Source: Verrucomicrobiaceae bacterium
Lineage (GTDB): Bacteria; Verrucomicrobiota; Verrucomicrobiia; Verrucomicrobiales; Verrucomicrobiaceae
NCBI GenBank assembly: GCA_016795365.1
Contig: JAEUHN010000055.1
Span: 1-64,000 of the forward strand
DNA length: 64,000 nt
Direction of reading: 5' to 3'
A program made the translations under genes and the position numbers. This document shows, piece after piece, positions 2,598 through 20,112 of the stretch; positions within the stretch are counted from its first letter, which is position 1; each line of letters starts with the position of its first letter. Under the pieces are notes generated by a model. It ran no database searches and was not told the DNA's origin. It saw nothing but the letters and a program-made list of their open reading frames with translations.

Positions 2598-5500
2598 CTA
2601 TCGCCCGGCCACTTCGTGAATCTCCTTGGCCCCAGTGCGCAGCACTTCGATGCCGCTGATGATGGGCATGTGATCAGCCTCGGTGGCCGTGGTGATCAGA
2701 TCGAGAGCGAGCTTGTCAGTGACAGCAATCTTCTCGAACTCGACGATGTGGGCCTTCTTCTCGCCTCCTGAAGCCACCACAGGATCAAAGCTCTTGAGCA
2801 CGGTCTTGCCTTGCAGTTGCACATCGAAGACACGTTGCCCGGCCTTGTCATTCTCCAGCGAGGCGAAGTAGAGACGAACGGTGAACGTGTCGGCCTTTTG
2901 ATCCTTGCCAATGAGCGGCAGCTCCGCGTGCGTGAGACCCTTGATGCCGCTGGTGAATACCCAGGGCGTGTCGTGACCACTCACCTGATACGAGTCACTG
3001 TTGAACGCGTAGTTGCCACCGCCTTTGAGGATCGTGGGTTTCAGGTCGAGCGGCAGATCAATGCCTGCCCGTGAACTCGGGCGCGGATAGCCCAGCCAGA
3101 GCTTGCCATGCGAATCGCGACGATCACCGGGAGCGGCAAGATTGAGCGCGAGATGCTGGACGGGCGCGGTGGCACCATCGGCATAGTAAACTCCCCAGTC
3201 GATTTTGTCGTCGCGCGGCTCGAACACGATGGTGCTGGCAACGCTGAACAAGCAAACACACCCAGCGCTTGCTTCAGGAATCATGACCAGACCATTGGCA
3301 GGGATCGTATTGATCCAGCAGCCCAGGCGTTGCCCGGCGAAGTGCTGCGTGCCCTGGTCTTCGTCGCGATTGTAGTAGGCGGTGAACTTGCTGCGGAAGA
3401 ACATCATGTTTGGCGTGGCGCTGATCGCGCCGCAGTGGTGACCTGGACGGATGAAGGACCACGGTGTCTGCTCGCCTGTGATCGGGTGCGTGCGCATCTT
3501 TTGCTGGCCGGTGTAGAGGTCGTAGGACCATGGCTCGGCGATGATCTCATTGTCGATGATGATGGGGCGATGGCGGTAGTTGGCATCCTTGGCCCAGAGC
3601 TTCTCACCATTGTTTGCATCGAGCACAACCAGGCGACGGCGGGCAAACTCGCCCTTCAGGAACTGCTCCCAGTAGTGACCATTCGCATTCGCACCACCGA
3701 GGACGATGTGACCGTTGTGGTAGAGCAAGGTAAGACTGCCGCCGCCGTCACCGATCTCGCTGCAATCGGTGACATCGACAGGCTTGGCGAAAAGCTGCTT
3801 GCCGGTTTTGGCATCGAGACCTACCGCGAGACGGAGGTCCGCCTTCTTGATGCGCTCCTCGGCAATCTGCTGCTCCTTGCCCGTCAGCTTGGCCAACTCA
3901 GATTTGTCCTGATTGAGCATGTCTTCGCGTTGCTCCTTGGTCAGTGAGGCATCGATGAGGAAGACGCGACCGTCGCCAATGGCGATGCTCACATGGGAGA
4001 TGTGCTTGCCCGCATACTCCCAGGCAATCTTCTGGGACTGGATGTCGAAGGCGAAGATCTTGTCGGTGGAGTCGGCGACCGTGGCACCTCGGCGCTTGCG
4101 CTCTTCGGTCAGGGCTTTGCGGTCCGTGCTGGTGCCGAAGAGCAAGCCATCCTGCACCGCGATGTAACCCCACTGGCGCTCTTCCTTCGGCTTGGTTCCA
4201 GGCACCTCGAATTCGTGCACGATCTTCCCAGTCGCTGCATCAAACTGAACACATTTCTCTTCGACGACCACGAAGAGCGCGTCGTTCGTCGCGGCCATGT
4301 TGCCCGGCTCGCGTGCGGCTTTGAGTCCATCGCGAATGGCTCCCGGGTTAGCCACTTCCCAGAGCAGATCGCCATTGTAGGCATCGTAGGCCATCACGGT
4401 GGTGTCGCCCTGGATGAACAGGCGACCATTCACGCTGATCGGACCCACGGCACCGTTGTGACGATTCACCATCTTGCCGGGACCTGGATCGCCATACCAC
4501 AGCACGCTGAGCCCGCCTTTGATCCGCTGATCGTTGTTGGACGACGTATTCGCCGCATTGCCATACTGATGGGACCAATCACCTGCGCCAGGGAGTGCCG
4601 CACGCTTCAGCAAAGTAAAGTCACCCTGTTTCGTGATCGTTGCCTTCTCGTCAGCGAGTTTCGTGGCGGCGAGGAATTCATCAGCCTTGCCGCTGGAGGC
4701 CAGGCAGAGCACACCACCGAGAGGCTTGAGATGACGTGCCACATCCGTGGGCACATTGGTGAACGATTCATTGTCCGCGACGATGAGGTTGGCGAAGTAG
4801 CTGCCGTAGGGGATGGTCGAGAGGTCGAGGTGATCGAAGGTGAGACGAGGACCATACAGGCCGGTGTTGATCATCTGGGCTCGAGCGGCTTCTACTTTCT
4901 TCGCATCTGTATCGACGCCGAAAATGATCAGCTGACTGCGCCTCGCGAGTTCGAGCGCGAGATGACCACGTTCATTGCCTAGCACGAGGCAGAAGCCCTT
5001 GGTGATGCCAGTGTGCTTCAGGATTGCCTCCGCCTTTTTTGCTGCTTCAGCATCGGTGGGTGACTGGGCAAGTGCAGGGGATGGAGCAGGGCTGCCTCCC
5101 GTGGTGAAGTTGTAAATCTTCCCGGTGCTCGTGCTCACCACGAGGTGGCTATTCGCCACCGCAATGCCGCGGGCGTTGCCATCGACTGCCGACTGCCAGA
5201 CCTGCTTGCCACTGGCTGCATCAATGGCAATCACCTCATTCAGACCACCCGCAAACAAGGTGTTGCCAGCGAGCACGAGTGACGCGTCGTGCTTGGAGGG
5301 CAGCTTCCACTTCACACCTTCGTCAGCAAACGTGGTCACCTCTTTCTTCGCTTTCGCGAGTTCGTCCTGCTTCGCCTTGTAGTCGGCACGCTTGGGTTCG
5401 TAGAGCGCGGTCGCGGCGTTCATGTCGCTTTCATACTTGGCGAGCGCCGTCTTGATGCTTTCGACGCCGGTGCCGGTTTTCTCCGCCTGGGCGAGGCTCT

Positions 5501-6638
5501 CCTTGGCTTTGCGCAGTTTGGTGGCGTGCTTCTCCACATCCTTCACCAGCGCGAGCGCCGGGTGCTTCTTGAGGTCGGCGCTGAGCTTGGTGATCTTCAT
5601 CTGCAAGGCGTGGCGCTTCCGTGTTCCCTCGGCGTGAGCGATCTTGTCGATGCAGGTGATTTCGGTGCCATTGGCCATGTAGCCGAGATTGCCTGCAAGC
5701 GTCATCTGAGTGCCAGCGAACCATCCGAAGCCGGTCTTCTGCTTGTCCTGATCCATCGCGAGGATTTGATGTTCGCCCACCGCGAAGATCTGGTCGTCGG
5801 CAAGGAAGGCTTGTGTGCCACCGATCTGTCCACCTGCATCGCCACGCCAGCCGGGCTCGGGCTTGACGAGATACTCACCTGTCTTGCGATTGAACGAGGC
5901 CGCCAGCGAACGACCTGAGGGGACAAACAAGATGTCCTTCGAGGCCAGTAGGTAGCCCTGAGGCGAGAGGTCGTTGCGTCCAGCGTCCTGCTGGCTGATG
6001 GCGTCGTTCTTCCAGATCACTTTGCCGGTCGCTGCCTCGACCGCATACAGATAGACATTCTCGTGCGGGAACACACCTGCTCCGAAGTAGGCCACACCAT
6101 CATCGACGAGCACACCGGTGCGCACTGGCCAGCGTGAGACCATGCGTCCTCGGGCCAGGATGCGTTCATCGTTGGGACCGGCACGAAGCTTCCACACGAG
6201 GCTGCCATCCTTGGCGCTGATGCAATAAACCCAGCCGTCGTCTGAACCAATGAACACGCGGTCATCAACGACCATCGGAGCAAGCCGCACCGGAGCTAGC
6301 GTGAAGAAGGTCCACACGTCGGTTCCCGTCTTCAGATCCTGGCAATGAACCCGGCCATCGACAGATGAGCCAAAGAACATTCGATCACCCACGATGGCCA
6401 CGTGAAACACATCATCGAAGGTGATGCGGTTCTTCAGAATCATCGTCTCGTATTGCTTCCCGTCTTCACCAGCCCAGGCCATTTGCGGAGCTGTGGGTGA
6501 AGTGAAGGTGGAGCGCAGCGTGAGTGGTAAATTCAAAGACTCTTCGGTGAAGCCTACGCGAGAAACATCGTGCAAGTAAGTGGGCCAGTCTGCATGGGCA
6601 GTCAGGGTGATTAAGGAGAGTGCGGCGAGTAGCTTCAT
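2598..6638 (-). CDS. Secreted multidomain protein: PQQ-type beta-propeller, methyltransferase-like domain, malectin-like domain
   Basis: A 1346-residue protein with a clear signal peptide (MKLLAALSLITLTAHA). Residues about 20-340 and 690-1190 carry many PQQ/quinoprotein propeller strands of the type GxVhCxDxxTGxxVW (VHCQDLKTGTDVWTF, VYCISAKDGSLVWKL, VIAIDAASGKQVW, MAYDAYNGDLLWEV). Residues about 345-440 are a charged coiled coil. Residues about 535-680 look like a class I SAM methyltransferase: VLGNERGHLALELA for motif I, then an acidic GVDTDAKKVEAA after strand 2. The last 130 residues resemble a malectin fold (TFTVRLYFASLE, GQRVFDVQLQG, IISGIEVLR). Redox or carbohydrate binding at the cell surface is plausible; whether the methyltransferase part is active is unknown. 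It is divergent from the FadL-like gene. Confidence 0.85.
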   Translation of the reverse strand: MKLLAALSLITLTAHADWPTYLHDVSRVGFTEESLNLPLTLRSTFTSPTAPQMAWAGEDGKQYETMILKNRITFDDVFHVAIVGDRMFFGSSVDGRVHCQDLKTGTDVWTFFTLAPVRLAPMVVDDRVFIGSDDGWVYCISAKDGSLVWKLRAGPNDERILARGRMVSRWPVRTGVLVDDGVAYFGAGVFPHENVYLYAVEAATGKVIWKNDAISQQDAGRNDLSPQGYLLASKDILFVPSGRSLAASFNRKTGEYLVKPEPGWRGDAGGQIGGTQAFLADDQIFAVGEHQILAMDQDKQKTGFGWFAGTQMTLAGNLGYMANGTEITCIDKIAHAEGTRKRHALQMKITKLSADLKKHPALALVKDVEKHATKLRKAKESLAQAEKTGTGVESIKTALAKYESDMNAATALYEPKRADYKAKQDELAKAKKEVTTFADEGVKWKLPSKHDASLVLAGNTLFAGGLNEVIAIDAASGKQVWQSAVDGNARGIAVANSHLVVSTSTGKIYNFTTGGSPAPSPALAQSPTDAEAAKKAEAILKHTGITKGFCLVLGNERGHLALELARRSQLIIFGVDTDAKKVEAARAQMINTGLYGPRLTFDHLDLSTIPYGSYFANLIVADNESFTNVPTDVARHLKPLGGVLCLASSGKADEFLAATKLADEKATITKQGDFTLLKRAALPGAGDWSHQYGNAANTSSNNDQRIKGGLSVLWYGDPGPGKMVNRHNGAVGPISVNGRLFIQGDTTVMAYDAYNGDLLWEVANPGAIRDGLKAAREPGNMAATNDALFVVVEEKCVQFDAATGKIVHEFEVPGTKPKEERQWGYIAVQDGLLFGTSTDRKALTEERKRRGATVADSTDKIFAFDIQSQKIAWEYAGKHISHVSIAIGDGRVFLIDASLTKEQREDMLNQDKSELAKLTGKEQQIAEERIKKADLRLAVGLDAKTGKQLFAKPVDVTDCSEIGDGGGSLTLLYHNGHIVLGGANANGHYWEQFLKGEFARRRLVVLDANNGEKLWAKDANYRHRPIIIDNEIIAEPWSYDLYTGQQKMRTHPITGEQTPWSFIRPGHHCGAISATPNMMFFRSKFTAYYNRDEDQGTQHFAGQRLGCWINTIPANGLVMIPEASAGCVCLFSVASTIVFEPRDDKIDWGVYYADGATAPVQHLALNLAAPGDRRDSHGKLWLGYPRPSSRAGIDLPLDLKPTILKGGGNYAFNSDSYQVSGHDTPWVFTSGIKGLTHAELPLIGKDQKADTFTVRLYFASLENDKAGQRVFDVQLQGKTVLKSFDPVVASGGEKKAHIVEFEKIAVTDKLALDLITTATEADHMPIISGIEVLRTGAKEIHEVAGR

Positions 6639-6832: not shown

Positions 6833-6861
6833 TCGCTGCTGTCCATTTGGACAGCCCTCCC

Positions 6862-8121
6862 ATGTCGTCCTCTCATACCTCACGTTGGGGCAGCCGTCTG
6901 GCTGCCGTTTTTGCTGCTGCTGCAACCATGCAGGGATATGCAGCGGAAGGTGTTCGAACCCTTCCTGATTCGGCTGGAGCGCTCGGAATGGTGGGCGGCA
7001 GACAGGCAAACTTGCGTGATCCTTCCGTCACCCGATCGAATCCCGCGAACCTGCAGTTCCTTCGCGAAGATGCATTGATGATCAATGTGCAGCCCTGGTA
7101 TGGGCAGACCGATTTCGATGGTGTGAATGGAACCTCTGATTCTATGATCCAGCCATGGAAACCTCTCGGCAGTTTCTATGCTGTGATGCCGGTCAATGAC
7201 GATGTCACGTTTGGTTTTGGCATCACAGCCCCGTTCGGCATCGCCATCAGCTGGCCCCGTGATGGAGCGTTTAGATACAGTGCGCCTTACGATGCGGTTC
7301 TTCAAACCGCTGCGATCAACCCGGCAGTGGGAATCAAGATCTCGGATGCGGTGAACTTCGGCGTTGGTCTGGACATCTTCTACTCCAGACTCAAGCTCGA
7401 TCAGGCTTACCCGTGGGCTGCGGCGCTTGGCGTGCCGGCTGCTGATGGCGACATGACCTTCGAGGGCGATGGCTGGGGTTTGGGTGCGTATGCGGGATTC
7501 ACGATCCAGCTCGCTGAGCACCATCGTCTGGCGATCACTGGGCGGCTCCCAGTGACCGTGGATTACGAAGGTGATTTCACAATCAGCAACATGCCAGCCG
7601 CACTCCGGGGCCTGTATTCTTCACGCAGCGACTTCAAGTCGCAGATCGAACATCCGGCGAGCATTGGGGTTGGCTATGGAGTGGACCTCTCGGACAAGAT
7701 CACCTTTGGCCTCGACTATGAATGGATCCAAAACTCTGCGCACACGAGCCTGCCTTTGAACGTGGGCAAGAATCAGGCGCTGCTGCCAGTGAGCGGACTC
7801 GATCTTGAGTGGCGTGACTCTTACACGATCGGCGGCGGCTTTGAATACAAGCTCACTCCGGCATGGATGCTGCGCGCGGGTTACATGTTCTCGAAGTCTC
7901 CTCTGCGCGACCGGACATTCACGCCGTCGATTCCCACCAATGACCGCCACCTGTTCAGCATCGGCACCGGCTACACCTTTGGCAGGAACACCATCGACTT
8001 CGCCTACTCGTTCGTGCCGATGGAGACCCGCCATGTGCGCACGGCTGCCACACCTGCGTTCAATGGTGACTACGAGATCGAGTGGCATGTGTTCAGCCTG
8101 AGCTACACACGGCGATTCTGA
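6862..8121 (+). CDS. FadL/OmpP1-family outer membrane transport protein
   Basis: A 419-residue protein starting at the ATG at 6862, with a signal peptide ending near MQGYAAEG. The mature start (GVRTLPDSAGALGMVGGRQA) followed by DPSVTRSNPANL matches the FadL/TodX pattern of an N-terminal hatch with an early SNPANL-like motif. The rest alternates short polar turns with amphipathic strands (FGFGITAPFGIAISWP, VGVGYGVDLSDKITFGLDY) and ends in an aromatic-rich final strand closing with RRF, as outer membrane barrels do. FadL proteins move long-chain fatty acids or other hydrophobic compounds across the outer membrane. It lies just upstream of the lycopene-cyclase-like gene (42-base gap), so transport of a hydrophobic substrate or product is a reasonable inference. 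Confidence 0.85.
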   Translation: MSSSHTSRWGSRLAAVFAAAATMQGYAAEGVRTLPDSAGALGMVGGRQANLRDPSVTRSNPANLQFLREDALMINVQPWYGQTDFDGVNGTSDSMIQPWKPLGSFYAVMPVNDDVTFGFGITAPFGIAISWPRDGAFRYSAPYDAVLQTAAINPAVGIKISDAVNFGVGLDIFYSRLKLDQAYPWAAALGVPAADGDMTFEGDGWGLGAYAGFTIQLAEHHRLAITGRLPVTVDYEGDFTISNMPAALRGLYSSRSDFKSQIEHPASIGVGYGVDLSDKITFGLDYEWIQNSAHTSLPLNVGKNQALLPVSGLDLEWRDSYTIGGGFEYKLTPAWMLRAGYMFSKSPLRDRTFTPSIPTNDRHLFSIGTGYTFGRNTIDFAYSFVPMETRHVRTAATPAFNGDYEIEWHVFSLSYTRRF

Positions 8122-8163: not shown

Positions 8164-9156
8164 ATGAACTCCAGAATCAGCAGCTCGTTCGTCATGTTCG
8201 TCGCGATGCTTGTGCTCATCGCGCTGCCCGTGACGCTCACGCTGTTTACCGTCCACCATCCGCATACGATGGTGCCTACATCGGACAATCCGACGCCCTA
8301 TGGCTACACTTGGAGCTGTTTGATGTTCATCATTCCTGTGGTCGTGCTCGGCTGGTGGTTTCACTTCCACTGGTCGCAGAAGATGGACAAACGTGCTTTC
8401 TATATCGCGGTCGCGGCGTTTGCCGTGTCAGGCAGTCTCCTGGACATCACTTTGGGCAATACGTTCTTCGAGTTCCCGAACAAGAACGCCGTGCTCGGCT
8501 GGTTCATTCCTGGCTGGAAGTTTGGTGTCGGTTGGGTGAAGAATCTTCCCATCGAAGAGTTCGTCTTCTACGTGTCTGGCAATCTCTTCACGCTGCTCGT
8601 TTACCTTTGGGGAGCCAGCGTATGGTTTGATCGCTACAACCCTGAGGGTTACCTGACGCTGCCGGCGGACACACGGCGCATGTTCAAGCCTCACTGGGAC
8701 TCCCTTGTCTATGCGGTGGTGCTGATTGTCGGAGCAATCGTGGTGAAAAAGTTTCTCGCCCTGCCAGAGAATCGTGAAGGCCTGCCGGGCTACTTCATCT
8801 TCGAGGTGTGTGTGCTTTTCGGTCCCACGTTCGTCCTGTTTCACAGCGTCAAGGACTTGATCAACTGGCGTGCCATGGGCCTGTCGATCGTCATGATGTG
8901 GCTCATCAGTGTGATCTGGGAGGCTACGCTCGCACTGCCATACGGGTGGTGGGGATTCCACAAGCCGATGATGCTCGGCATCTTCATTCGCGGATGGTCA
9001 CACCTGCCGATCGAGGAGCCGATTCTGTGGACCCTGGCACCGTGGGTGACTGCGATGATGTATGAAGCGGTTCGATTGTTCGTTAGCAGTCAGAACTCTG
9101 TGCGCGAGACGCTCCTGGGGAGCAAATCCGGGACTTCATCTGCCAGGCAGGTATGA
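8164..9156 (+). CDS. Integral membrane protein with two lycopene-cyclase-like (CrtYc/CrtYd-type) domains
   Basis: A 330-residue polytopic membrane protein with about seven or eight hydrophobic helices. The ATG at 8164 is used because the in-frame TTG 21 bases upstream has nothing to support it. Two copies of the hallmark motif of the small membrane lycopene cyclases are present: LPIEEFVFY at about 128-136 and LPIEEPILW at about 281-289. CrtYc and CrtYd each carry one PxEE motif and act as a pair; archaeal and fungal enzymes fuse the two. Here both copies are in one chain, which fits a fused heterodimeric-type cyclase. The loop RGWSHLPIEE and the acidic pairs are intact. The neighbouring CrtI-like genes support a carotenoid-like role, but the substrate is unknown. 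Confidence 0.75.
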   Translation: MNSRISSSFVMFVAMLVLIALPVTLTLFTVHHPHTMVPTSDNPTPYGYTWSCLMFIIPVVVLGWWFHFHWSQKMDKRAFYIAVAAFAVSGSLLDITLGNTFFEFPNKNAVLGWFIPGWKFGVGWVKNLPIEEFVFYVSGNLFTLLVYLWGASVWFDRYNPEGYLTLPADTRRMFKPHWDSLVYAVVLIVGAIVVKKFLALPENREGLPGYFIFEVCVLFGPTFVLFHSVKDLINWRAMGLSIVMMWLISVIWEATLALPYGWWGFHKPMMLGIFIRGWSHLPIEEPILWTLAPWVTAMMYEAVRLFVSSQNSVRETLLGSKSGTSSARQV

Positions 9157-9168
9157 CACTGACAACGA

Positions 9169-12100
9169 ATGAACGGCAGCTCGCGATATACCATTGGTGA
9201 CGTGCTCCACGAGAGCGCGAGGTCGCGCGTGTGCCGAGGGGTCGCTGAGGATGGCACGCCGGTGATCCTCAAGTTTGCCAGCCCACAAGAACGCGATGCA
9301 GGAGTGATCAGCCAGCTTCGCCACGAGCATCAGATCCTGGAGCGAATGGCGAAGCGCACGGGTGATCCGGTGGCGCTTGTTTCCATCGACGGCGTTGAGG
9401 CGCTGGTGCGTCTCGATCGAGGCGGTGTGCCGCTGGCGGCCTTGCTCAAGAATGGGGCGATGCCATTCGAACTCGGGCTGGCTGCCGCGCGTTCCCTCGT
9501 GGAAGCCCTGGACGGTGTCCATCGCGCTGGCGTCGTGCACAAGGACATCAATCCTTCGAACATCCTGTGGCATGACGATGAGGCGACTGTCACCCTGATT
9601 GACTTCGGGATTGCCCAGTTCGAGCAGGGTGATGAAGCGCCCATTTTAGCGGCGTCGATCGCTGCCGGGACCTGGGCTTATGCGGCGCCCGAGCAAAGCG
9701 GACGCATGAGGCGCACACCGGATGAACGTGCGGATCTCTATGCCGTGGGCATCACCTTGTATGAGATCTTCAGTGGTGGTGTGCCCTTTGTGGGTGGCGA
9801 TGTGGCCGAATTGATCCATGCGCATCTGGCAGTGAAGCCATCGCCGCTCATCGAGCGTGCGCCCGGGGTGCCGAAGCAGCTTTCAGACATGGTCGGCAAG
9901 TTGCTGGAGAAGGAGCCGGAGCGCCGCTATCAGACGGCTTCGGGTTTGCTGGCCGATCTGCAACGACTGGCTAGCGATTCGTCGGAGTTTCCGCTCGGTC
10001 TTCAAGACTCCATCGAGCGCTTCGACGTGCCTGAGCGGCTTTATGGTCGCGAGGCGGAGATCGATACCTTGTTGGCTGAGTTTGATCGCACACGTGCGGG
10101 CGCTTCAAGGTGCGTGTTTGTGGCCGGTTACTCGGGCATCGGCAAGTCTGCGCTCGTGAGGCACATCCAGCAGTCCGTCATCACCCACCACTGCACCTTC
10201 CTCAGTGGCAAATTTGACCAGCTGCAGCGCAACGTTCCGTTTGCGACGCTCGTGCAGGCTTTTCAGGGATTGATTCGACTGATGCTGAAGGAGAGCAAGG
10301 AACGGCTGGCCCAGCTGCGCTCTCATCTCCTGGAGGCTCTCGGCGAGGGCGTTCGCGTGGTGGTGCCTTACATCCCGGAGCTGGAACTCATCGTGGGCAG
10401 GCAGCCGCCGCCTGATTCGCTGCCGCCAGCGGAGGCGCACAATCGACTGCGTCGAGTCTCACTGAACTTCATGAAGGTCTTCGCGCGTCCCGAGCATCCG
10501 CTGGTGCTGTTCCTGGACGACCTTCAGTGGGCCGATCCCTCCACGCTGGAGATGATCGAACTCTATGCCTCCACCGACCAGCTTACGCATCTCTTGCTGA
10601 TCGGCGCTTATCGCAACAACGAAGTCGATGCCACCCATCCGCTGACAGTGATGCAGCAGCGCTTGAAGCAGCTGCCGGAGCCACCGCTGACGATCAAGCT
10701 CGGGCCGCTGCCGGCCGGCGGCCTTGCCTTGATGCTTGCGGACATTCTGCGCACGGACACGGCCTCGGTCGCATCGCTGGCGCAGATCTGTCTGGCGAAG
10801 ACGGACGGCAATCCATTCTTCCTGATCCAGTTCCTGCGCTCGCTCTACGATCATGGACTGATCGCCTTCAACAAGGAGGTCATGAAGTGGGAGTGGATGG
10901 AGGACCTCATACGTTCGCAGCGGGTGCAGGAGAACGTCGTCGATCTCATGATTCGTCGCGTGGGCGAGCTGCCGCAGCGCACTCGTGACGTGCTCAAGAC
11001 GGGAGCTTGTTTTGGTCCTTCGTTTGATCTCGTGCCCATCGCCAAGCTCCGCGGCAGCAGCGTGGAAGAGCTGCTGACCGATGTGTGGGCGGCCGTAAAG
11101 CCGATGTTCATCGTGCCTCTTCATTCCACACAAATTCATGCGGGCCACGTCATCGGCGGTGGAGCGGGCACAGCTCCCCGGCAGTTCCAGTTCATCCATG
11201 ACCGCGTCCAGCAGGCTGCCTACTCACTGATTGGCGAGGACGAAAAGCCAGCACTGCATCTGAGCATCGCGCGGCTCTTGCTCAAAGGCACCGACGAGCG
11301 GGAACTCGACGACCGCCTCTTCGACATCGTCCATCATTTCACCCTCGGACGACCCTTGCTCAAGGATGCAGCCGAGCGGCGCAACGTTGCGGATTTGACC
11401 CTGCGCGCTGGTGAAAAGGCCCGCGCTTCTGCGGCCTTCCCGTCGGCACGTAGTTTTGCTCGTGCAGCCCTGGGACTCATGGATGAAAGCAGCTGGACCA
11501 GCGACTATCCGCTGCGGTTCCGCGCGGGTTTCCTCGCTGCCGAGTCGGCCTACCTCTGCCAGGATTTCGCTGAGATGGAGCAGCTCACGGGCGATCTCAC
11601 CAGCCATGCTCGCGATGTGCTGGACCGCGCCCGCATTGCTGAAGTCCGCATCCAGTCGCTCATGGCCAGGGCAGAGCCGATCGCAGCGATTCATCATGCC
11701 CTGCCGATCCTGCGTGAGCTGGGCGTGAAGCTGCCCACGAATCCAGGCACGCTCGATGTTTTGATCGGGATGGCCAAGACGGAGATTCGTCTGCGCAAGT
11801 TCAAGATCGAGGACTTGCTACATCTGCCCGTGATGACCGATCCGGCGAAGCTCGCAGCCGCGCGCATCCTTGAGCACGTGTATTCGAGCGCCTACTTCGC
11901 TCTGCCGAACCTGTATCCCCTGATCATGTTCGCCTTCATCCGCATGTCCTTGCGGTATGGGAACACGGCGGCCTCGGCGGTGGGATACTCGGCGTATGGT
12001 GTGATTCTGTGTGGGATGTTCCGCCAGATCGAGCGCGGCAATCGCTTTGGCAAGCTATCGCTCGACTTGATGCGGCAGCTGATGGCGAATCACATCAAGG

Positions 12101-14484
12101 CGAAGATCGTGCAGGTAACGCAAGGCTTTGTGACGGTGTGGAAGCATCATCCTGACACCGTGATCGAGAGCTTTCTGGAGGCTCATCAGGCCGGCATGGA
12201 ATGCGGGGACCTGGAGTTCGCCTCCTACACCTGCCAGATGATTGGCTTCTTCCACCTCTGGAGTGGCGTGCCGCTGGAGAGCGTGGATCAGGAGATGCGG
12301 AACTACACGCGCGTCATCGAGCGCCTGCAGCAGATCACCCCTCTCTATCAGATCCGCATCTGGCATCAGCTCACGGCGAACCTGCTTGGTCAGGCGGCCA
12401 ATCCCTTGCGCATGTCAGGCGAGCACTACGAAGAAGGCACGATGCTCGACAAGCATCGGGAGGCAAAGGACGAGATCGCGCAGTTCTTCATGCATCACTG
12501 CAAGATCACGCTCGGCCTGTTCTACGATGATCCTGCGGAGGCCCTCGCCTCGGCCGAGGAAGCCATCCGTTTGCAGAAGAAAGGCGTGGCCATCGGCAGC
12601 ACGGTGGTGCCCATCTTCCATGCTTACGTGGCGCTGCTGTTCCTGATTAAATCACGCATTAGCGCCGAGTCTGACCGCCCTGCTTGGCTAAAGAAGGCAC
12701 GGGCTCAACTCAAGCCTCTGCGCCAGTGGGCCGCTGCCGCTCCCATGCATGGTGAAACGCGTTACTTGCTCGTGCAGGCGGGGCTGGCCACCCAGGACTC
12801 GGAGCAGATGCGCCTCCTGCACGAAGCGGAGAAGGCCGCCCGCAAGCATCGTAACGAGATCGAACTGCCTTTGATCCATGAGCGTCTTGGGGCCTTCTAT
12901 CAAAAGCTGGGGCAGATGACGATCAGCCAGATGTTCCTCACGGAGGCGCTTCTGGGTTATCGTCGTCTTCAAGCCCATGGCGTGGCGGAGCGCCTCGTTC
13001 GTCAGCATCCTGCGCTCGGGTTGAGAACCCGTGCGACGGATTCGGTCGCCACTAGCCAGACCATGTCCCTCGGAGCGACGAGTCTGCTCGGCAGCACCTC
13101 GACGATGACCGGGAGCACCACTTCGTCGGTGGTTGATGTGTCATCGTTGGTGAAGGCCACTCAGGCGTTGTCGGGAGAGATCGTGCTGGAGCGTCTATGC
13201 GTGAGGTTTATGCAGATCATGCTCGAGAATGCTGGCGCTGATCGCGGACTGCTGGCGCTCTTCACCGGTGACAACCTCTTGATTGAAGCCGAGGCCACCG
13301 TGGCACCACCGGAGGTAACCGTGCTCAAGGCGCTGCCAGTCGAGACCATGCGCGATGGCCAGCCGATTGCCCCCGTGCAGATCTTCAACTATGTGCAGCG
13401 CACACAGGAAGCCCTCGTGATCGATGACGTTTCTCGCAGCGACCTCTTCAACGACGATCCTTTTGTGCAGCGCGAGTCGCCGAGGTCCGTGATTTGTGTG
13501 CCGCTCCAGCACCAGCGCCGGTTCACGGGCATCCTCTACCTTCAGAACAAGCTCACCTCTCACGCCTTCCCTCCAGATCGCGCCTTCATGCTTCAGTCCT
13601 TGTCCGCGCAGGCAGCGATCTCCATCGAGAACGCCCGCCTCTACGGCAATCTGGAAGCGCTGAATCGATCGTATGCACGGTTCGTGCCCGTCGAGTTCCT
13701 TCAGATGCTGGACCGCCGCAGCATTACCGATGTGAAGCTGGGCGACCAGGTGCAGCGCAGCATGAGCGTGCTCTTCTCGGACATTCAGGGCTACACTTCC
13801 ATGTCCGAGCGCATGACTCCGGAGGAGAACATCAACTTCATCAATGCCTACCTGAAGATGATGGAGCCCGTGCTGCACAATCACTTTGGCTTCATCGACA
13901 AGTATATCGGCGACGCCATCATGGCGCTCTTCCCGCGCACACCGGTGGACGCTGTGCGCGCGGCCGTGGAGATGCTCAAGACTCTACGGCACTACAATGA
14001 AAAGTGCAGCGGTGTTCCGATCGCTGTGAGTATCGGCATCAATACCGGCAGCCTGATGCTAGGTGTGGTGGGTGGCACCGATCGGCTGGACACCACCGTG
14101 ATCAGTGACGCTGTTAACCTTGCCGCCCGCATCGAGTCTTTGACACGGACGTATGGAGTGTCCCTCCTGATCACCGAACACACGTATGCGGAACTGCCAG
14201 GAGGTGATGAAATCGCTGGATGTATTCGCAAGGCGGACCGGGTGGTCGTGAAGGGCAAGTCCAAGGCGGTCGATGTCTATGAAGTCTTTGCTGCTGATGA
14301 ACCGGAGCTGTGCCGGCACAAGCGTGCGACGCTTGCTGGCTTCCATGCTGCCTACGAGGCGTTCCACGGTGGCGAGCTGGATTCAGCGCGAACGGCTTTT
14401 CAACAACTGCTTGCCCAGTGCCCGGACGACAAGGTCGTGGCGCACTACGTCGAGCGCTGCCGTGGAGGTGCCGCAGAGGCATGA
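9169..14484 (+). CDS. Giant signalling protein: Ser/Thr kinase, AAA ATPase, helical repeats, GAF and class III adenylate cyclase
   Basis: A 1771-residue protein. Residues 7-270 form a protein kinase with K35, HKDINPSNIL (catalytic D126), DFG at 145-147 and YAAPEQ. The glycine-rich loop is degenerate (LHESARSRVCRG), as is usual for kinases fused this way. Residues about 290-560 are an AAA_16-type ATPase with Walker A GYSGIGKS at 320-327 and Walker B ending LFLDD at 447-451. A long TPR-like region follows to about 1290, then a GAF domain (about 1325-1500). The class III cyclase domain (about 1530-1740) has metal-binding D1538 and D1582, the adenylate-type K1578 and T1643, and N1650/R1654. It should be soluble, with kinase and cAMP outputs. 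It starts 12 bases after the lycopene-cyclase-like gene, suggesting cotranscription. Confidence 0.92.
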   Translation: MNGSSRYTIGDVLHESARSRVCRGVAEDGTPVILKFASPQERDAGVISQLRHEHQILERMAKRTGDPVALVSIDGVEALVRLDRGGVPLAALLKNGAMPFELGLAAARSLVEALDGVHRAGVVHKDINPSNILWHDDEATVTLIDFGIAQFEQGDEAPILAASIAAGTWAYAAPEQSGRMRRTPDERADLYAVGITLYEIFSGGVPFVGGDVAELIHAHLAVKPSPLIERAPGVPKQLSDMVGKLLEKEPERRYQTASGLLADLQRLASDSSEFPLGLQDSIERFDVPERLYGREAEIDTLLAEFDRTRAGASRCVFVAGYSGIGKSALVRHIQQSVITHHCTFLSGKFDQLQRNVPFATLVQAFQGLIRLMLKESKERLAQLRSHLLEALGEGVRVVVPYIPELELIVGRQPPPDSLPPAEAHNRLRRVSLNFMKVFARPEHPLVLFLDDLQWADPSTLEMIELYASTDQLTHLLLIGAYRNNEVDATHPLTVMQQRLKQLPEPPLTIKLGPLPAGGLALMLADILRTDTASVASLAQICLAKTDGNPFFLIQFLRSLYDHGLIAFNKEVMKWEWMEDLIRSQRVQENVVDLMIRRVGELPQRTRDVLKTGACFGPSFDLVPIAKLRGSSVEELLTDVWAAVKPMFIVPLHSTQIHAGHVIGGGAGTAPRQFQFIHDRVQQAAYSLIGEDEKPALHLSIARLLLKGTDERELDDRLFDIVHHFTLGRPLLKDAAERRNVADLTLRAGEKARASAAFPSARSFARAALGLMDESSWTSDYPLRFRAGFLAAESAYLCQDFAEMEQLTGDLTSHARDVLDRARIAEVRIQSLMARAEPIAAIHHALPILRELGVKLPTNPGTLDVLIGMAKTEIRLRKFKIEDLLHLPVMTDPAKLAAARILEHVYSSAYFALPNLYPLIMFAFIRMSLRYGNTAASAVGYSAYGVILCGMFRQIERGNRFGKLSLDLMRQLMANHIKAKIVQVTQGFVTVWKHHPDTVIESFLEAHQAGMECGDLEFASYTCQMIGFFHLWSGVPLESVDQEMRNYTRVIERLQQITPLYQIRIWHQLTANLLGQAANPLRMSGEHYEEGTMLDKHREAKDEIAQFFMHHCKITLGLFYDDPAEALASAEEAIRLQKKGVAIGSTVVPIFHAYVALLFLIKSRISAESDRPAWLKKARAQLKPLRQWAAAAPMHGETRYLLVQAGLATQDSEQMRLLHEAEKAARKHRNEIELPLIHERLGAFYQKLGQMTISQMFLTEALLGYRRLQAHGVAERLVRQHPALGLRTRATDSVATSQTMSLGATSLLGSTSTMTGSTTSSVVDVSSLVKATQALSGEIVLERLCVRFMQIMLENAGADRGLLALFTGDNLLIEAEATVAPPEVTVLKALPVETMRDGQPIAPVQIFNYVQRTQEALVIDDVSRSDLFNDDPFVQRESPRSVICVPLQHQRRFTGILYLQNKLTSHAFPPDRAFMLQSLSAQAAISIENARLYGNLEALNRSYARFVPVEFLQMLDRRSITDVKLGDQVQRSMSVLFSDIQGYTSMSERMTPEENINFINAYLKMMEPVLHNHFGFIDKYIGDAIMALFPRTPVDAVRAAVEMLKTLRHYNEKCSGVPIAVSIGINTGSLMLGVVGGTDRLDTTVISDAVNLAARIESLTRTYGVSLLITEHTYAELPGGDEIAGCIRKADRVVVKGKSKAVDVYEVFAADEPELCRHKRATLAGFHAAYEAFHGGELDSARTAFQQLLAQCPDDKVVAHYVERCRGGAAEA

Positions 14485-14610
14485 CGGGCAGCGCGTGCAC
14501 AGGCTGCGATTTTGCCCGGCTGCTGCTGCCGGAGTCGCGAGCAGGCAGATTGCCCTCTGATCGTTGGCGGCCAGTCATTTGTTAGACTCACCCATTGTTA
14601 ATCTACCACC

Positions 14611-16800
14611 ATGAGCACCACACCTCCCAAGCGCATCGCCATTGTCGGCGGCGGCATTTCTTCGATCATCACGGCCTTCGAACTCACGGCCACACCAGAG
14701 CTTCGGGCGCAGCACGATATCACCCTTTACCAGATGGGCTGGCGCCTCGGTGGCAAGCTGGCCAGCGGTGGTAATCCGAAGCTTGGCGGCCGCAATGAAG
14801 AGCATGGACTGCATGTGTGGTTCGGGTTTTACGACAATGCCTTCTTCGAGATCACCCGCTGCTATGAAGAGCTGGCGAAGATCCAACCTGAAGCCCGCTA
14901 CAAGAGCTACGACGAAGCCTTCAAGCCCTGTGACTACACGCCGGTGGGCCATTGCACGGATGATGGGAGCTATGGCTTCTGGGACTTCTACTGGCCCGTG
15001 GTGCCCGGCACGCCGGGCGTTTACAATCCGCTGCCACGACCACTCGTGTTTCTGGGCAGCGTGTTGCGCTGGCTGCACCAGCGAATTCACGACCACTTCG
15101 ATATCGCCAAGTTCGTCTCCATTGAGGCAGGCAAGCTGATCGCCCAGTTTCACGAGGCCTTCGAGCGTTTGCTCGCCAAGGTGGAGAACACAGTAGCTCC
15201 CATTCAGGTGATCTCCGACAACTGGGTGGATGCCAATTTCCAGCGTGCCATCACCTGGATCGAGTCGCTCGATCAGCTCAGCGATGTGACCGTTTACGCA
15301 GACACCCAGCTGCTCATCGCCTTCCTCACGCAGTTCAAGAATCACCTCATTGCTGCTATCAATGCTCTCGGGCTCCGCCACCCCGATGATCATCCAATCG
15401 TGAGTGGCATCGAGCTGGCATTCACCACCATCATTGGTCTCCTCAAGCCTGAGAATGGCTGGCTGAAGGACTTCAATTTGAACCGCTTCGATGATGTCGA
15501 TCTGCGCGCCTGGATGATCTCGAATGGCGGCGATCCGCTGGTGGTCAACGAGTCCTCTATCCTCCGCGCGCTTTATGACATCCCGTTCGCCTATGTGAAC
15601 GGCGACATCAATCAGCCGAACTTCGCAGCAGGCTCCTCCTTGCGCTGGGTCTTCCGCACGGTGTTCACTTATCGTGGTCACGCGATGTATGAGCCCCAGT
15701 GCGGCTTCGGCGAGGCGGTGATCGCGCCTTACTACAAGGTGCTTGAGGCTCGCGGCGTGAAGTTCCAGTTCTTCCACAAGCTGGTGGAGACCACGGTCTC
15801 GGATGACAAGACGAGCGTGCAATCGCTTCGCTTCGCGCTGCAAGCCCACGCCATTGGCGGCACCTACAATCCGGTCAGTTTCAGCGGGGGCCTTTATCAC
15901 TGGCCGATCGAGCCCGACTGGAATCAGCTGGTGAACGGCGAGGATGCACGGAAAGCGGGAGCAGACTTCGAGTCGCACTGGAATCCGTATCCACTCGTGG
16001 GCGAGGTGGTGATCAATGTCGGCACGGACTTCGACCATGTGGTCATCGGCCTGGCAGGTGGCGTGTGGAAACGACTCAATGCCGTGGACGAGCCCCCTGT
16101 GGGCAGCCTGCTGGACGCGATTCCTCAGTTCAATGCCGCGGCCTCCAGCCTTGGCCTTGTGGCCACCTCGGGCGTGCAGTTCTGGTTCAACAAGGCCGTC
16201 ACTGATCTGGGCTGGAAACTGAGGCCTGCGAGTGTGGGGGGGCCGGAGCCGCTTGATGTGTGGGCTGATATGTCACAGGTCATTGCCACGGAAGAGTGGA
16301 CTGGAGACGTGCCCAAGTCCCTGCACTACCTGTGCGGTCCGATCGCGACGACGCTCTACGCGCAGCCTTCCACCGATGAGACCGTGATGAAGCAGGCGGA
16401 TGCACTCGTCGAAGAGATGACGCTCGAGTGGCTGGAGAAGTATGGTGTTTGTGACTGGCCCGGCGGCAAAGATGCGAACGGGAACTTCGACTGGTCGATC
16501 CTCTTCGATTCGTCCAACGCAGCGGGCAAAGACCGGCTCAAGGCGCAGTTTCTACGTGCGAACGTGACGCCCACCGAGTGTTGCGGACAGACTCTCGCCG
16601 GGACCACGAAGCATCGCGTGAGTTCGGATGACATGCTTTTGAAGAACCTGTCGATCGTGGGTGCCGACACGAACACTGGCGTCAATGTTACCTGCGTGGA
16701 AGGGGCGACAATCTCCGGCCGCAAGGCCTCACGCGCGATCTGCGGCTCGCCTCAGTTCATTCCGAACGAGGATTATATGGGCGGCCCCTTCAATCCTTGA
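14611..16800 (+). CDS. CrtI-like FAD-dependent oxidoreductase (amine oxidase/phytoene desaturase superfamily), first copy
   Basis: A 729-residue flavoprotein. The N-terminus has a dinucleotide-binding fold (IAIVGGGISSIITAFEL, residues 9-25) and a GWRLGGKLASG segment at 43-53, the R-x-GG motif of carotenoid desaturases and amine oxidases. The C-terminus has the FAD-contact end (SIVGADTNTGVNVTCVEGA) followed by a helix with GRKASRAICG. At over 700 residues it is much longer than CrtI (about 500), the extra length being a helical insert at about 130-330. The third glycine of GxGxxG is serine. It is followed after 11 bases by the acetoacetate-decarboxylase-like gene, so the two are probably one transcript. 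A carotenoid or other polyene substrate is inferred from the cyclase-like neighbour. Confidence 0.8.
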   Translation: MSTTPPKRIAIVGGGISSIITAFELTATPELRAQHDITLYQMGWRLGGKLASGGNPKLGGRNEEHGLHVWFGFYDNAFFEITRCYEELAKIQPEARYKSYDEAFKPCDYTPVGHCTDDGSYGFWDFYWPVVPGTPGVYNPLPRPLVFLGSVLRWLHQRIHDHFDIAKFVSIEAGKLIAQFHEAFERLLAKVENTVAPIQVISDNWVDANFQRAITWIESLDQLSDVTVYADTQLLIAFLTQFKNHLIAAINALGLRHPDDHPIVSGIELAFTTIIGLLKPENGWLKDFNLNRFDDVDLRAWMISNGGDPLVVNESSILRALYDIPFAYVNGDINQPNFAAGSSLRWVFRTVFTYRGHAMYEPQCGFGEAVIAPYYKVLEARGVKFQFFHKLVETTVSDDKTSVQSLRFALQAHAIGGTYNPVSFSGGLYHWPIEPDWNQLVNGEDARKAGADFESHWNPYPLVGEVVINVGTDFDHVVIGLAGGVWKRLNAVDEPPVGSLLDAIPQFNAAASSLGLVATSGVQFWFNKAVTDLGWKLRPASVGGPEPLDVWADMSQVIATEEWTGDVPKSLHYLCGPIATTLYAQPSTDETVMKQADALVEEMTLEWLEKYGVCDWPGGKDANGNFDWSILFDSSNAAGKDRLKAQFLRANVTPTECCGQTLAGTTKHRVSSDDMLLKNLSIVGADTNTGVNVTCVEGATISGRKASRAICGSPQFIPNEDYMGGPFNP

Positions 16801-16811
16801 TCCCCTAAACC

Positions 16812-17780
16812 ATGACTTCTTCTCTTCCTCTCTACGTTGATATCGAAGGCCGCAACGATGCCTCCGTGATGCCTCCGGGCGTCTTCTGCGGCACCTCATC
16901 CTGGACTTTCGCGGTGTGCGCGGACCGTGACAAACTTCAGGCACTGGCCCAACGGCTGATCAGCGACCCGACGGGCGGCGAGTGGCAGGTCTGCGTGCCA
17001 GCGGGTCTGGTGCTCATGATCTTCTTCAACGAAGACAGCCTGAACTCGCCAGCGCAGCCCATCGGCTGGACGCCGAACCAGGAGTTCGTTTGCTCGATCC
17101 CCGTGCTCCTTCAGAGCAAGTCCGATCCTCTCAAGGTCCATATCGGCCTGCTTCCACCCTGGGTGTATATCGACAATGCTCGCGGCATGGTGACGGGACG
17201 CGAGAGCTGGGGCTACTTCAAGAACTTGGGAACGATCAGTGCGCCCAAAGAATGGTCTTCGGACTTCTGTTGCTCACTGGACACTCTCACCTTCACTCCA
17301 GTTGCACCATCCACGGAGGGCGAGGTCACTCGTCTGGTGACGGTGGAGCCGATCGATGAGGTTACCGATCCACCCACTCACATCCCTGGCCTGCCGCCTG
17401 CGCAGCATGCGACGATCGTGGAGTTGTTGCGCAGGCATGTGGAAGAGGATGCGCTGGAACTATTCGAGAAGGCAGTGATGGCACTCGAGCCCTTCGCGAT
17501 CACGGTTTTCAATTTGAAGCAGTTCCGTGATGTCACCGATCCCACCCGCGCTTGCTTCCAGTCGATTACCACCAGCCCGCTTCAGGTGACGAAGATCGAA
17601 TCCATGCACCTGCTCCCACAGGGACTTGGTGTCATGATCGAGGCGTGCGGCAGCGAGCAGATGGCCCAGTTGCTGGGTATCTGCGACTGTCCCGCCAAGG
17701 TGCTTTTCGGCATTGGTGCCGAACTCGAATACTCGGCCATTTCAGGTGCGACGCTGTGGCAGGCCCGAACGGGTTGCTAA
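16812..17780 (+). CDS. Acetoacetate-decarboxylase-like protein
   Basis: A 322-residue soluble protein. The segment from about 115 to 140 (YIDNARGMVTGRESWGYFKNLG) matches the acetoacetate decarboxylase superfamily pattern G-R-E-x-W-G-Y-x-K, in which the lysine (K137 here) forms the Schiff base. The family cone fold usually has about 250 residues; the extra C-terminal part (about 200-322) has no clear motif. Superfamily members act on several beta-keto or enolisable substrates, so decarboxylation of acetoacetate itself is not implied. The gene sits directly behind the first CrtI-like flavoenzyme and faces the second, which suggests the three proteins act in one pathway. Confidence 0.7.
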   Translation: MTSSLPLYVDIEGRNDASVMPPGVFCGTSSWTFAVCADRDKLQALAQRLISDPTGGEWQVCVPAGLVLMIFFNEDSLNSPAQPIGWTPNQEFVCSIPVLLQSKSDPLKVHIGLLPPWVYIDNARGMVTGRESWGYFKNLGTISAPKEWSSDFCCSLDTLTFTPVAPSTEGEVTRLVTVEPIDEVTDPPTHIPGLPPAQHATIVELLRRHVEEDALELFEKAVMALEPFAITVFNLKQFRDVTDPTRACFQSITTSPLQVTKIESMHLLPQGLGVMIEACGSEQMAQLLGICDCPAKVLFGIGAELEYSAISGATLWQARTGC

Positions 17781-17823
17781 AAGCCTCACGACAACCGGTG
17801 ATTCGCACAGCCTTCGATCATCT

Positions 17824-17858
17824 GCCCCAGGGAGCCTTTTACTCGGGCACCCTGGGGC
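17824..17858. terminator. Candidate hairpin between convergent genes
   Basis: Perfect 9-base inverted repeat, gccccaggg at 17824-17832 and ccctggggc at 17850-17858, with a 17-base loop. It lies between the stop of the decarboxylase-like gene (17780) and the convergent stop of the second flavoenzyme (17899). No T-run follows on either strand, so intrinsic termination is uncertain. Confidence 0.35.
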
Positions 17859-17898
17859 TGCGTGACGAGAGCCGCTGGTCATCCAGTTTTGAAGCGCT

Positions 17899-20112
17899 CT
17901 ACGGCGATGGTGCTGGTGGATAAGCTGGAATCTGGGCGGGCACCCCGCAGATGCCTCGCGAGGCGGCCATGCCGGCTTCGACGGCAGCCTCGACGCAACC
18001 ACCATTGACACTGGAGACCGCCCAGTCGCCCGCGAGGAAAAGATTGGCGAAGCCGCTTTGATCAGAGCGGAGGCGGAGCTTGGAGGTGCCGGGGAAGGAG
18101 GCCACGTAACGCTCGCTCGGATCGATATTGGCACGCACATATTGGGAGTCCAGCCGAGCGGAGCCTGCGGAGTTGGCCGGATCGTGCAGAAGATTGAAGT
18201 CGAATCCACCGGAGCCGTTCGAAGGCGTCGCCTTGGGCCAGAGGTGTTCGATGTGGTTGTTGAGCCATTCGAAGGCTGTCTGCTTCACCTTGGCATCCGC
18301 CATTGCTGGATAGTTGGGATCGCTCAAGGGCGGCACGGCTGGTCCGGGCATGGGACCACAGAAATAATGCAGGCTCTGCGGAGGTGATGGAGTGCCGCTC
18401 CAGTTCTCCTGCGGCAGCACATCGGACATCTCGCCCCACGTATCGAAGGGCTCGGCATACGTGGTCATGATGGTGTTCATGCCGTTCCAGCCGAGATCGT
18501 TGAGCGCGGGTTGCATCCACAGTTGCATCGCCAGTGTCTCGACGGTGCGCAGCGATGTGACCATGGTGTTCCAGGTTGGACTGGCGGCGCACAGTTCAGG
18601 CGTGATGGAGGGCAGTCCCGCGAGGGAGATGCCGAGCACGACGTGATCAAAGTCCACGCCTTGCTTCAAGACGGCGGTGCCCGTCTTCACGTTGCACCAG
18701 CCGGAGTTGAAGGTCAGACCCGCCTTGGCGAGCTGTGCCTGAAGGTCAGCGGCGTCCTCGATTTGGTTCCAGTCAGGCTCATCGGGCCAGGCCTGCAGTG
18801 TCTTGCCCGTGGGGAAGGTGATTTCGTAGAGCGGCGAATACTCCACCCCGCCTTTGATGACAGCCTGCACATCCATCTCGATCCCAGCGATTTGTTTCTT
18901 GTCGGCCGAGAGCTGGAGATTGGTTGCACGGTGGAAGAACTGGAACTTCACGCCTCGCTTCGAGAGCACCTGATAGATCGGAGCAAATATCGTGTCGCCC
19001 ATGCCACCGATCATGCGCCACATGGGAGCATCCTTGTAGCCTAGCGCCATGCGCAGATACACCAGCAGCGCCGTGCCTGCCTCGAAGCGTGCATGATCAC
19101 GATCCGCAATGCCGCCGTCGAACGAGAAGGCCAGATTATAGATCGCCCGGGTGAAGGCGCTCCATTGCGTGCTGGCGGATGCCCCGTGGCGGGTGATCCA
19201 GGCGACAAAGTCTTCCTGATTGATCGCTTCGATTCCGGCAGGTCCCTTCGGCAGCACGTCGGTGACCATGCCTTTGCCGACGGTGGTGACGAAATCAAAC
19301 ATCTGCCAGGCCCACTTCAAATCATCGCCTTGCGTGGTGAGCGATGAAATCTCCGGGCTTCGCAGCCACTGTTGAAACTCGCCCAGGTAGTGCGAGGCGA
19401 TCTCGTGCAAGGTTTGAAGCGGATGCGAACTCTGCCCCTGGGAGGAACTAAACAATCCGTGTGCCGCCACGCGCAGCGAGTGGAGCAAGGTGTGCGAATC
19501 GTCCACGATCGTCGAATGCGTCTGCTTCAATAGCTCCAAGAGAGCCTGATGAGTGGAGGGCAACGTTGCTGTGCTCGGTGCCTGGTCTTTGTGAGCGAAG
19601 AGCGGCGAGTCTTTGAAGTGACGGTGCATCCAGTCGGCCAGCAACCGGAACAACTCTTCCAAGATCAGCTCCACTGAGCTTTGTCCCGGCGTGCCGGGTG
19701 TCTGGGGCATGTGGATGTTCCTTGTCACCCATCGAGTGCCGCTGTCGTCGGTGATGTCCTGCTGAATGGTGAAGAAGCGCTGCGGCGCGAAGGCATCCGT
19801 CCAGGTCTGGAACAAATCCGATGGCTTGGTCGGGCGCTCGGCATAAGTCGACTGGATCATGCGGAAGGCATTCTGATACCAGCCCAGCCACATGTGCAGG
19901 CCATGCTCATAAATACGGTCACCGTAGCCGTCGCGTGCGTCTCGTCCTGTAGCCCCCTTGCCGCCGAGCCTCCAGCCCACCTGATAAACTGTGACGTCGT
20001 ATTGCTCACGCAGTTCAGGGGTGGATGAGAGGAAGCCGGCCGCCGTCATCGCGCCGCAACCGCCCCCCAGAATGGCCACCTTCGTTTTCTGTTTTGGATT
20101 CGCTGTGCTCAT
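17899..20112 (-). CDS. CrtI-like FAD-dependent oxidoreductase, second copy
   Basis: A 737-residue paralogue of the flavoenzyme at 14611-16800, transcribed towards it. The ATG at 20112 is chosen over an in-frame TTG six bases upstream. It has the same plan: VAILGGGCGAMTAAGF at 12-27, GWRLGGKGATG at 47-57, the EHGLHMWLGWYQNAF segment shared with the first copy (EHGLHVWFGFYDNAF), a long middle insert, and a C-terminal FLAGDWAVSSVNGGCVEAA end that is more like classical phytoene desaturases than copy one. The GDW and GGCVEAAVEAG parts are standard FAD contacts. Two such long copies around a decarboxylase-like gene suggest successive oxidation steps on a polyene or similar lipid. Substrate unknown. 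Confidence 0.8.
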   Translation of the reverse strand: MSTANPKQKTKVAILGGGCGAMTAAGFLSSTPELREQYDVTVYQVGWRLGGKGATGRDARDGYGDRIYEHGLHMWLGWYQNAFRMIQSTYAERPTKPSDLFQTWTDAFAPQRFFTIQQDITDDSGTRWVTRNIHMPQTPGTPGQSSVELILEELFRLLADWMHRHFKDSPLFAHKDQAPSTATLPSTHQALLELLKQTHSTIVDDSHTLLHSLRVAAHGLFSSSQGQSSHPLQTLHEIASHYLGEFQQWLRSPEISSLTTQGDDLKWAWQMFDFVTTVGKGMVTDVLPKGPAGIEAINQEDFVAWITRHGASASTQWSAFTRAIYNLAFSFDGGIADRDHARFEAGTALLVYLRMALGYKDAPMWRMIGGMGDTIFAPIYQVLSKRGVKFQFFHRATNLQLSADKKQIAGIEMDVQAVIKGGVEYSPLYEITFPTGKTLQAWPDEPDWNQIEDAADLQAQLAKAGLTFNSGWCNVKTGTAVLKQGVDFDHVVLGISLAGLPSITPELCAASPTWNTMVTSLRTVETLAMQLWMQPALNDLGWNGMNTIMTTYAEPFDTWGEMSDVLPQENWSGTPSPPQSLHYFCGPMPGPAVPPLSDPNYPAMADAKVKQTAFEWLNNHIEHLWPKATPSNGSGGFDFNLLHDPANSAGSARLDSQYVRANIDPSERYVASFPGTSKLRLRSDQSGFANLFLAGDWAVSSVNGGCVEAAVEAGMAASRGICGVPAQIPAYPPAPSP

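Follow-up and report, generated by a model that had tools for sequence, protein, structure and literature searches.

A recurrent, often fused flavoprotein and ADC-like gene unit in a verrucomicrobial locus, possibly tailoring isoprenoid or polyene-like compounds

A locus that invites a question

Why would a bacterium place two large desaturase-like flavoproteins around an acetoacetate decarboxylase (ADC)-like protein, behind an outer-membrane transporter and a membrane protein resembling lycopene cyclases? This question is raised by a locus of a Verrucomicrobiaceae bacterium (assembly GCA_016795365.1), located in the stretch of 64,000 nucleotides that we analysed (the window; contig JAEUHN010000055.1, designated C38, of a 6.7 Mb draft genome). 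Our survey identified a recurrent, physically coupled flavoprotein-ADC unit that is accompanied by a variable signalling protein and by accessory FadL, cyclase-like or polyprenyl-synthase genes. We interpret the locus, with a probability of roughly one half, as a regulated and horizontally spread module that tailors an isoprenoid or polyene-like hydrophobic compound. It comprises the following genes:

6847..8121, + strand: P0006, FadL/TodX-type outer-membrane transporter for hydrophobic compounds (PF03349, FadL/Toluene_X, E=1.9e-53)
8164..9156, + strand: P0001, CrtYcd-like polytopic membrane protein with two P-x-E-E motifs in a single chain (weak TIGR03462 match; hhalign)
9169..14484, + strand: P0002, Ser/Thr kinase, AAA_16 (STAND) ATPase, helical repeat region, GAF and class III nucleotide cyclase, 1771 aa (Pfam)
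14611..16800, + strand: P0003, A-type flavoprotein, plant-type phytoene-desaturase-like, 729 aa (NAD_binding_8, E=7e-8)
16812..17780, + strand: P0004, ADC-superfamily protein with a predicted Schiff-base lysine K137, 322 aa (PF06314, E=1.2e-6)
17899..20112, - strand: P0005, B-type flavoprotein, paralogue of P0003, 737 aa from ATG (Amino_oxidase, E=1.5e-8)

The five genes from P0006 to P0004 share the + strand with intergenic gaps of 42, 12, 126 and 11 bp, and these gap sizes suggest a single transcription unit, with which P0005 is convergent. Gene order was identical in a sister species of the same genus ('Verrucomicrobiota bacterium KLAP44'), in which the FadL, cyclase-like, regulator and flavoprotein products were approximately 90-93% identical. 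The original prediction, made from the letters of the DNA, had described a FadL-like porin in front, a membrane protein with two LPIEE motifs, and two paralogous flavoproteins of over 700 residues flanking an ADC-like gene with R130, E131 and K137 of a GRExWGYxK pattern; all of these were present, while the regulator P0002 had been overlooked.

The flavoprotein-ADC unit recurs across phyla

Relatives of the flavoproteins, counted at E<=1e-30, were found in 3 of 388 Verrucomicrobiota genomes, 23 of 195 genomes in the phylum of an Archangium-type metagenome-assembled genome (MAG), 52 of 331 genomes in the phylum of the genome carrying locus L008, and 4 of 296 genomes in an actinobacterial phylum. 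They also occurred on plasmids of Azospirillum, Qingshengfaniella, Catenovulum and Rufibacter, and the Azospirillum plasmids held the regulator, a flavoprotein, the ADC-like gene, FadL and a second flavoprotein together. A FadL gene was beside the module in L030 as well. Many myxobacteria and actinobacteria encode the flavoprotein and the ADC-like protein as one chain, with the flavoprotein first in L007, L010, L011, L084, L088, L094-L098, L135, L139, L141, L144 and L156, and the ADC-like domain first in L069; Pfam added fusions in L016, L154 and L155. Across 133 genomes in the phylum of the Archangium-type MAG, all nine ADC-subfamily matches touched or were fused to a flavoprotein gene, a count made with a profile built from flavoprotein neighbours and thus covering no remote ADCs. 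Because fusions and adjacency recur across phyla, the grouping of the locus is real; chance neighbourhood was rejected on the fusions, the nine-of-nine ADC linkage and the control stretches given below.

The core of the module is the flavoprotein plus the ADC-like protein, very often joined by a STAND-ATPase regulator. In the window, this regulator is P0002, which lies between the cyclase-like gene and P0003 and in which Pfam recognised Pkinase, AAA_16, GAF and class III nucleotide cyclase domains. Its homologues adjoin the flavoprotein loci L014, L018 and many others, long relatives stand beside the same enzymes on the Azospirillum and Rufibacter plasmids, and AAA_16-only versions occur in L029 and L030; the domains vary between loci and the ATPase core is constant. 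A STAND-type AAA_16 protein was found more often than any other neighbour, in 52 of 81 flavoprotein loci; its absence from the other 29 is partly due to contig ends. In large closed genomes, the regulator accompanied 8 of 14 flavoprotein stretches and 1 of 20 arbitrary 20-kb stretches (Fisher P=0.001, for loci that are not fully independent, several being closely related), and the control stretches gave several weaker kinase/ATPase matches besides. Taken together, the gene identities, the cross-phylum linkage, the fusions in both orders and the conserved catalytic residues (see below) are established by these analyses.

The flavoproteins belong to the phytoene desaturase side

P0003 and P0005 had been predicted to be CrtI-like. 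We instead assign them as distant, enlarged relatives of plant-type phytoene desaturase (PDS), on the side that includes zeta-carotene desaturase (ZDS) and HpnE, because of their best NCBIfam matches, a profile search of the PDB and the fold match of P0005. Pfam recognised the FAD-binding ends alone. The best NCBIfam matches were the zeta-carotene desaturase model for P0003 (E=1.1e-9) and HpnE for P0005 (E=2.4e-8), both far under cut-off; at 37.7 bits against a curated cut-off of 622 (TIGR02731/TIGR02732), P0003 is a distant relative and not a member. The crtI_fam model TIGR02734 was absent from the NCBIfam matches of either protein at E<=1. With a sequence profile built from nine flavoprotein relatives, rice phytoene desaturase ranked first in the PDB. 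The AlphaFold model of P0005 (pLDDT 79, pTM 0.84) showed an FAD-dependent amine-oxidase-like fold. Its four best Foldseek matches were all chains of rice phytoene desaturase 5MOG (E 3e-14 to 9e-14); amine and nicotine oxidases came next, at approximately 7e-10 to 1e-9, and OhyA had 3e-8. CrtI identity was accordingly rejected, there being no crtI_fam match, a fold nearest to PDS and no CrtI in the host genome. A match of P0005 to the oleate-hydratase family MCRA (PF06100) had E=1.3e-4 over 43 residues and was not above cut-off; the L157 flavoprotein was also weak against this family (E=9.8e-5).

A tree built from 97 flavoproteins placed P0005 with members of L007, L014, L082, L087 and L130 (support 1.0), and P0003 in a weaker group with members of L007, L014, L082, L087 and L008. 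Loci of Verrucomicrobiota, a myxobacterium and Azospirillum each carry one A-type and one B-type flavoprotein. Because the copies of the window, L007, L014 and L082 fall into two separate groups, it looks as if the A/B pair were old and travelled together between genomes. The other two Verrucomicrobiota copies (L029 and L030) were placed on a distant branch.

In five loci, the flavoprotein has a domain of approximately 280 aa without Pfam match (motif YxAHNxxI) fused to it or encoded next to it, namely at the N-termini of the flavoprotein open reading frames of L148, L157 and L158, at L009:13034-14041 and at L018:11195-12148. In an actinobacterial locus, the flavoprotein-ADC pair is followed two genes later by a gene for a DUF2071 protein (L009:14052-14756).

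The ADC-like protein keeps one active-site lysine

P0004 carries the motif GRESWGYFK, which includes R130, E131 and K137. It scored 28.7 bits against PF06314, just under the cut-off of 29.8, and its family profile matched solved ADCs (E=7e-4). Among 41 members of the family, K137 was conserved in all, R130 in 39 and E131 in 37, and Schiff-base chemistry is therefore likely for P0004 as judged from its residues. In classical ADC, a second lysine is required to lower the pKa of the Schiff-base lysine (K115/K116). The residue after K137, equivalent to K116, is N in P0004 and S, Q, E, T, N or others in the family, with K in none of the 38 motifs read. Because this pKa-lowering lysine is missing in P0004 and its relatives, the decarboxylation step of the original prediction is unproven and would not be the expected default. 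Proteins of the wider ADC superfamily have been linked to other chemistry: CLA-DC, a sister enzyme, acts in a fatty-acid pathway with a double-bond shift (PMC9241672), and the cyanobacterial ADC-family protein all0736 is reported from carotenoid-rich lipid droplets as a homologue of plant NXD1 (PMC12923008), which is required for neoxanthin, its activity not being established (PMC8770946, PMC7587190).

The cyclase-like membrane protein is an accessory

P0001 (330 aa) contains LPIEE twice and matched TIGR03462 in two stretches (E=1.3e-4, 22.4 bits). A profile of its family (11 sequences) aligned to true CrtY domains with an hhalign probability of 92% (E=6.7e-7), as compared with 0.1% (E=0.66) for the reversed profile used as control. 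All 11 sequences have P-x-E-[ED] at the first motif; the second retains P-x-E, with the second acid often lost. This weak but specific evidence places P0001 within the CrtYcd-type lycopene-cyclase superfamily, on a branch that is small and divergent. The structure of P0001 predicted without an alignment was unusable (pLDDT 44).

Apart from the sister species, no relative of P0001 was found in 190 related genomes. In another phylum, relatives occurred in 7 of 331 genomes and were directly beside a flavoprotein gene in 5 of those 7. The cyclase-like gene is an accessory of the module and not part of its core. The original prediction had staked itself on a lycopene-cyclase superfamily membership of the membrane protein and on conserved co-occurrence of the genes; the former is upheld by the profile evidence, and the linkage is conserved across phyla, the cyclase-like gene being just an accessory to it.

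Other settings of this family were also observed. A Crp/Fnr regulator adjoins the cyclase-bearing locus L016. On plasmid pACIX902 of Granulicella tundricola, a P0001 relative annotated as hypothetical (L184:9983-10930) stands alone, without flavoprotein or ADC. Genome G1228 has two family copies separated by approximately 7 kb, with a STAND ATPase gene close by (L193), and no flavoprotein relative was found in that genome.

Isoprenoid links and missing carotenoid genes

A polyprenyl-diphosphate synthase (PF00348) was near 13 of 81 flavoprotein loci (L080, L083, L085, L089-L093, L137, L138, L143, L149 and L150) and near none of 20 control stretches; the three synthases tested against PF00348 gave E<=1e-53. 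These loci form a second type of flavoprotein locus, in which a saccharopine-dehydrogenase-like protein is often encoded as well, along with a proline-rich protein of unassigned family.

The original prediction had noted that crtB is missing, which holds for the locus. Two squalene/phytoene synthase (SQS/PSY) genes lie elsewhere in the host genome, one HpnD-like and marginally below cut-off, the other best on squalene-type models; no recognisable relatives of them were found in approximately 80 flavoprotein loci, and no CrtI above cut-off was found in the host genome. A classical carotenoid cluster was rejected, as no phytoene synthase was beside any locus and the genome had no CrtI. Given a host without CrtI, whose two SQS/PSY genes resemble HpnD or squalene synthase, the substrate is unlikely to be lycopene synthesised by the cell itself; uptake from outside or a squalene/polyprenyl precursor would agree better with these findings.

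Proposed function and its alternatives

The predicted non-standard route on a polyene or other hydrophobic compound remains reasonable, and its isoprenoid side is strengthened by the 13 polyprenyl synthases. We infer an isoprenoid or polyene substrate because the flavoproteins have a PDS fold, some loci include cyclase-like or polyprenyl-synthase partners and NXD1 offers a precedent; the order of steps, each reaction and the regulatory role are proposed as follows. FadL would pass the substrate or a precursor across the outer membrane, the substrate being either imported or built from a polyprenyl precursor. The two PDS-like flavoproteins would oxidise, desaturate or isomerise it, sequentially or as a pair, and, judging from the fusions, the A-type flavoprotein may hand its product directly to the ADC domain. 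The ADC-like protein would then act on a carbonyl intermediate via a K137 Schiff base, as an isomerase, a dehydratase/retro-aldolase or, less likely, a decarboxylase. Only in this genus and a few relatives, the CrtYcd-like membrane protein would probably cyclise or rearrange an end group. The kinase/STAND/GAF/cyclase protein may sense a signal or metabolite and control the module.

Several points weigh against this interpretation. The score of P0001 is under the curated TIGR03462 cut-off of 39.4. The polyprenyl-synthase loci belong mostly to one flavoprotein clade, which mostly lacks ADC and is not that of the window, which makes the isoprenoid link indirect. Neither phytoene synthase nor CrtI was beside any locus, CrtI being absent from the host too, and deep branches of the flavoprotein tree had weak support.

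Could the locus instead act on fatty acids? By analogy with CLA-HY and CLA-DC of Lactiplantibacillus plantarum, the flavoproteins might hydrate or isomerise unsaturated fatty acids imported by FadL, and the ADC-like protein might shift a double bond in an oxo-fatty acid. That pair forms a functioning pathway of a flavoprotein and an ADC-family protein in which a double bond is shifted and no decarboxylation has been reported (PMC9241672), and the FadL gene within the operon and the MCRA scores of P0005 (1.3e-4) and L157 (9.8e-5) are consistent with such a role. However, the MCRA match spans just about 45 residues, phytoene desaturase is a far better fold match than OhyA (3e-14 vs 3e-8), at other loci a polyprenyl synthase or a cyclase-like protein is encoded nearby, and no recurring fatty-acid enzyme was seen among the neighbour families identified; we therefore consider this role unlikely, if worth keeping in mind. 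A catabolic module appears rather improbable. It would import and break down terpenoids or carotenoids of plants, algae or other bacteria, with the ADC-like protein performing retro-aldol cleavage or decarboxylation on a shortened oxo-acid, which would agree with the presence of FadL, the Schiff-base lysine, the patchy distribution (3 of 388 Verrucomicrobiota genomes) and the accessory plasmids of rhizosphere and algal bacteria. Yet polyprenyl synthase, encoded next to 13 relatives, serves biosynthesis, it is hard to see what the cyclase-like protein would do in catabolism, and thiolases, acyl-CoA dehydrogenases and oxygenases were not recognised among the recurring neighbours.

The frequency of the STAND-type ATPase (52 of 81 loci), its stable core amid varying domains and the Crp/Fnr regulator of L016 would also suit enzymes that make or destroy a small hydrophobic signal sensed by the kinase/STAND/cyclase protein, any pigment role being secondary. 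Large genomes nevertheless contain many such kinase/ATPase genes (found in 1 of the 20 control stretches, with several weaker matches besides), and 29 of 81 loci lack one, some at contig ends; we consider a regulator-centred system very improbable. An anti-phage defence role was rejected, since PADLOC matched only the generic kinase/cyclase parts of P0002 and gave nothing for the enzymes. The locus also has an upstream neighbour, a 1346-aa pyrroloquinoline quinone (PQQ)-propeller/malectin protein (window 2598-6638) divergent from the FadL gene, with a counterpart at the same place in the sister species.

Returning to the tailoring of an isoprenoid or polyene-like compound, a bolder and doubtful version is that this is an undescribed kind of pathway. 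Fusion-coupled PDS-like flavoproteins and an ADC-fold Schiff-base enzyme might rearrange isoprenoid or polyene chains in a new way that forms allenes, oxo groups or rings and does not follow the phytoene/lycopene route. A kinase-STAND-cyclase receptor would control this pathway, whose genes would move from phylum to phylum as one unit. A literature search found no description of a cluster of ADC and phytoene desaturase, nor of ADC with polyprenyl synthetase in myxobacteria. A three-family module of PDS-like flavoprotein, ADC-like Schiff-base enzyme and STAND-type regulator, repeatedly fused and present in several bacterial phyla, thus appears not to have been described in the literature searched. 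It offers a testable bacterial system for the role of ADC-family proteins in carotenoid chemistry, an open question as the case of NXD1 and neoxanthin illustrates, and it adds a divergent branch to the CrtYcd cyclase superfamily.

Comparison with known systems

The best fold and profile match of the flavoproteins is to plant-type PDS/ZDS (CrtP, CrtQ) and HpnE, with which they share an E-x-G-x-H-x-x-F/W-G-x-Y-x-N motif, an FAD-binding N-terminus and a matching C-terminus. They differ in being only approximately 12% identical, in having approximately 250 more residues and a helical insertion, in scoring far under every curated cut-off and in lacking a phytoene synthase nearby. P0004 has the G-R-E-x-x-G-[YF]-x-K core and the predicted Schiff-base lysine of the ADC superfamily (PF06314, including CLA-DC and plant NXD1), whereas its subfamily has no second lysine after K137 in the motifs read, carries the motif LKQFRD...ACYQ and is tied to, often fused with, a PDS-like flavoprotein. 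P0001 resembles the heterodimeric CrtYc/CrtYd and fused CrtYcd lycopene cyclases (TIGR03462) in its polytopic form, its two P-x-E-E motifs and its profile homology. In contrast to them, it has 330 rather than approximately 230 aa and a score under cut-off, many of its relatives retain just P-x-E in the second motif, and its genome has no CrtI for making lycopene. The cla genes of L. plantarum likewise combine a flavoprotein (CLA-HY) and an ADC-family protein (CLA-DC) in one lipid pathway, but CLA-HY is an oleate hydratase. To our knowledge, that system has no fusion, cyclase or kinase/ATPase regulator.

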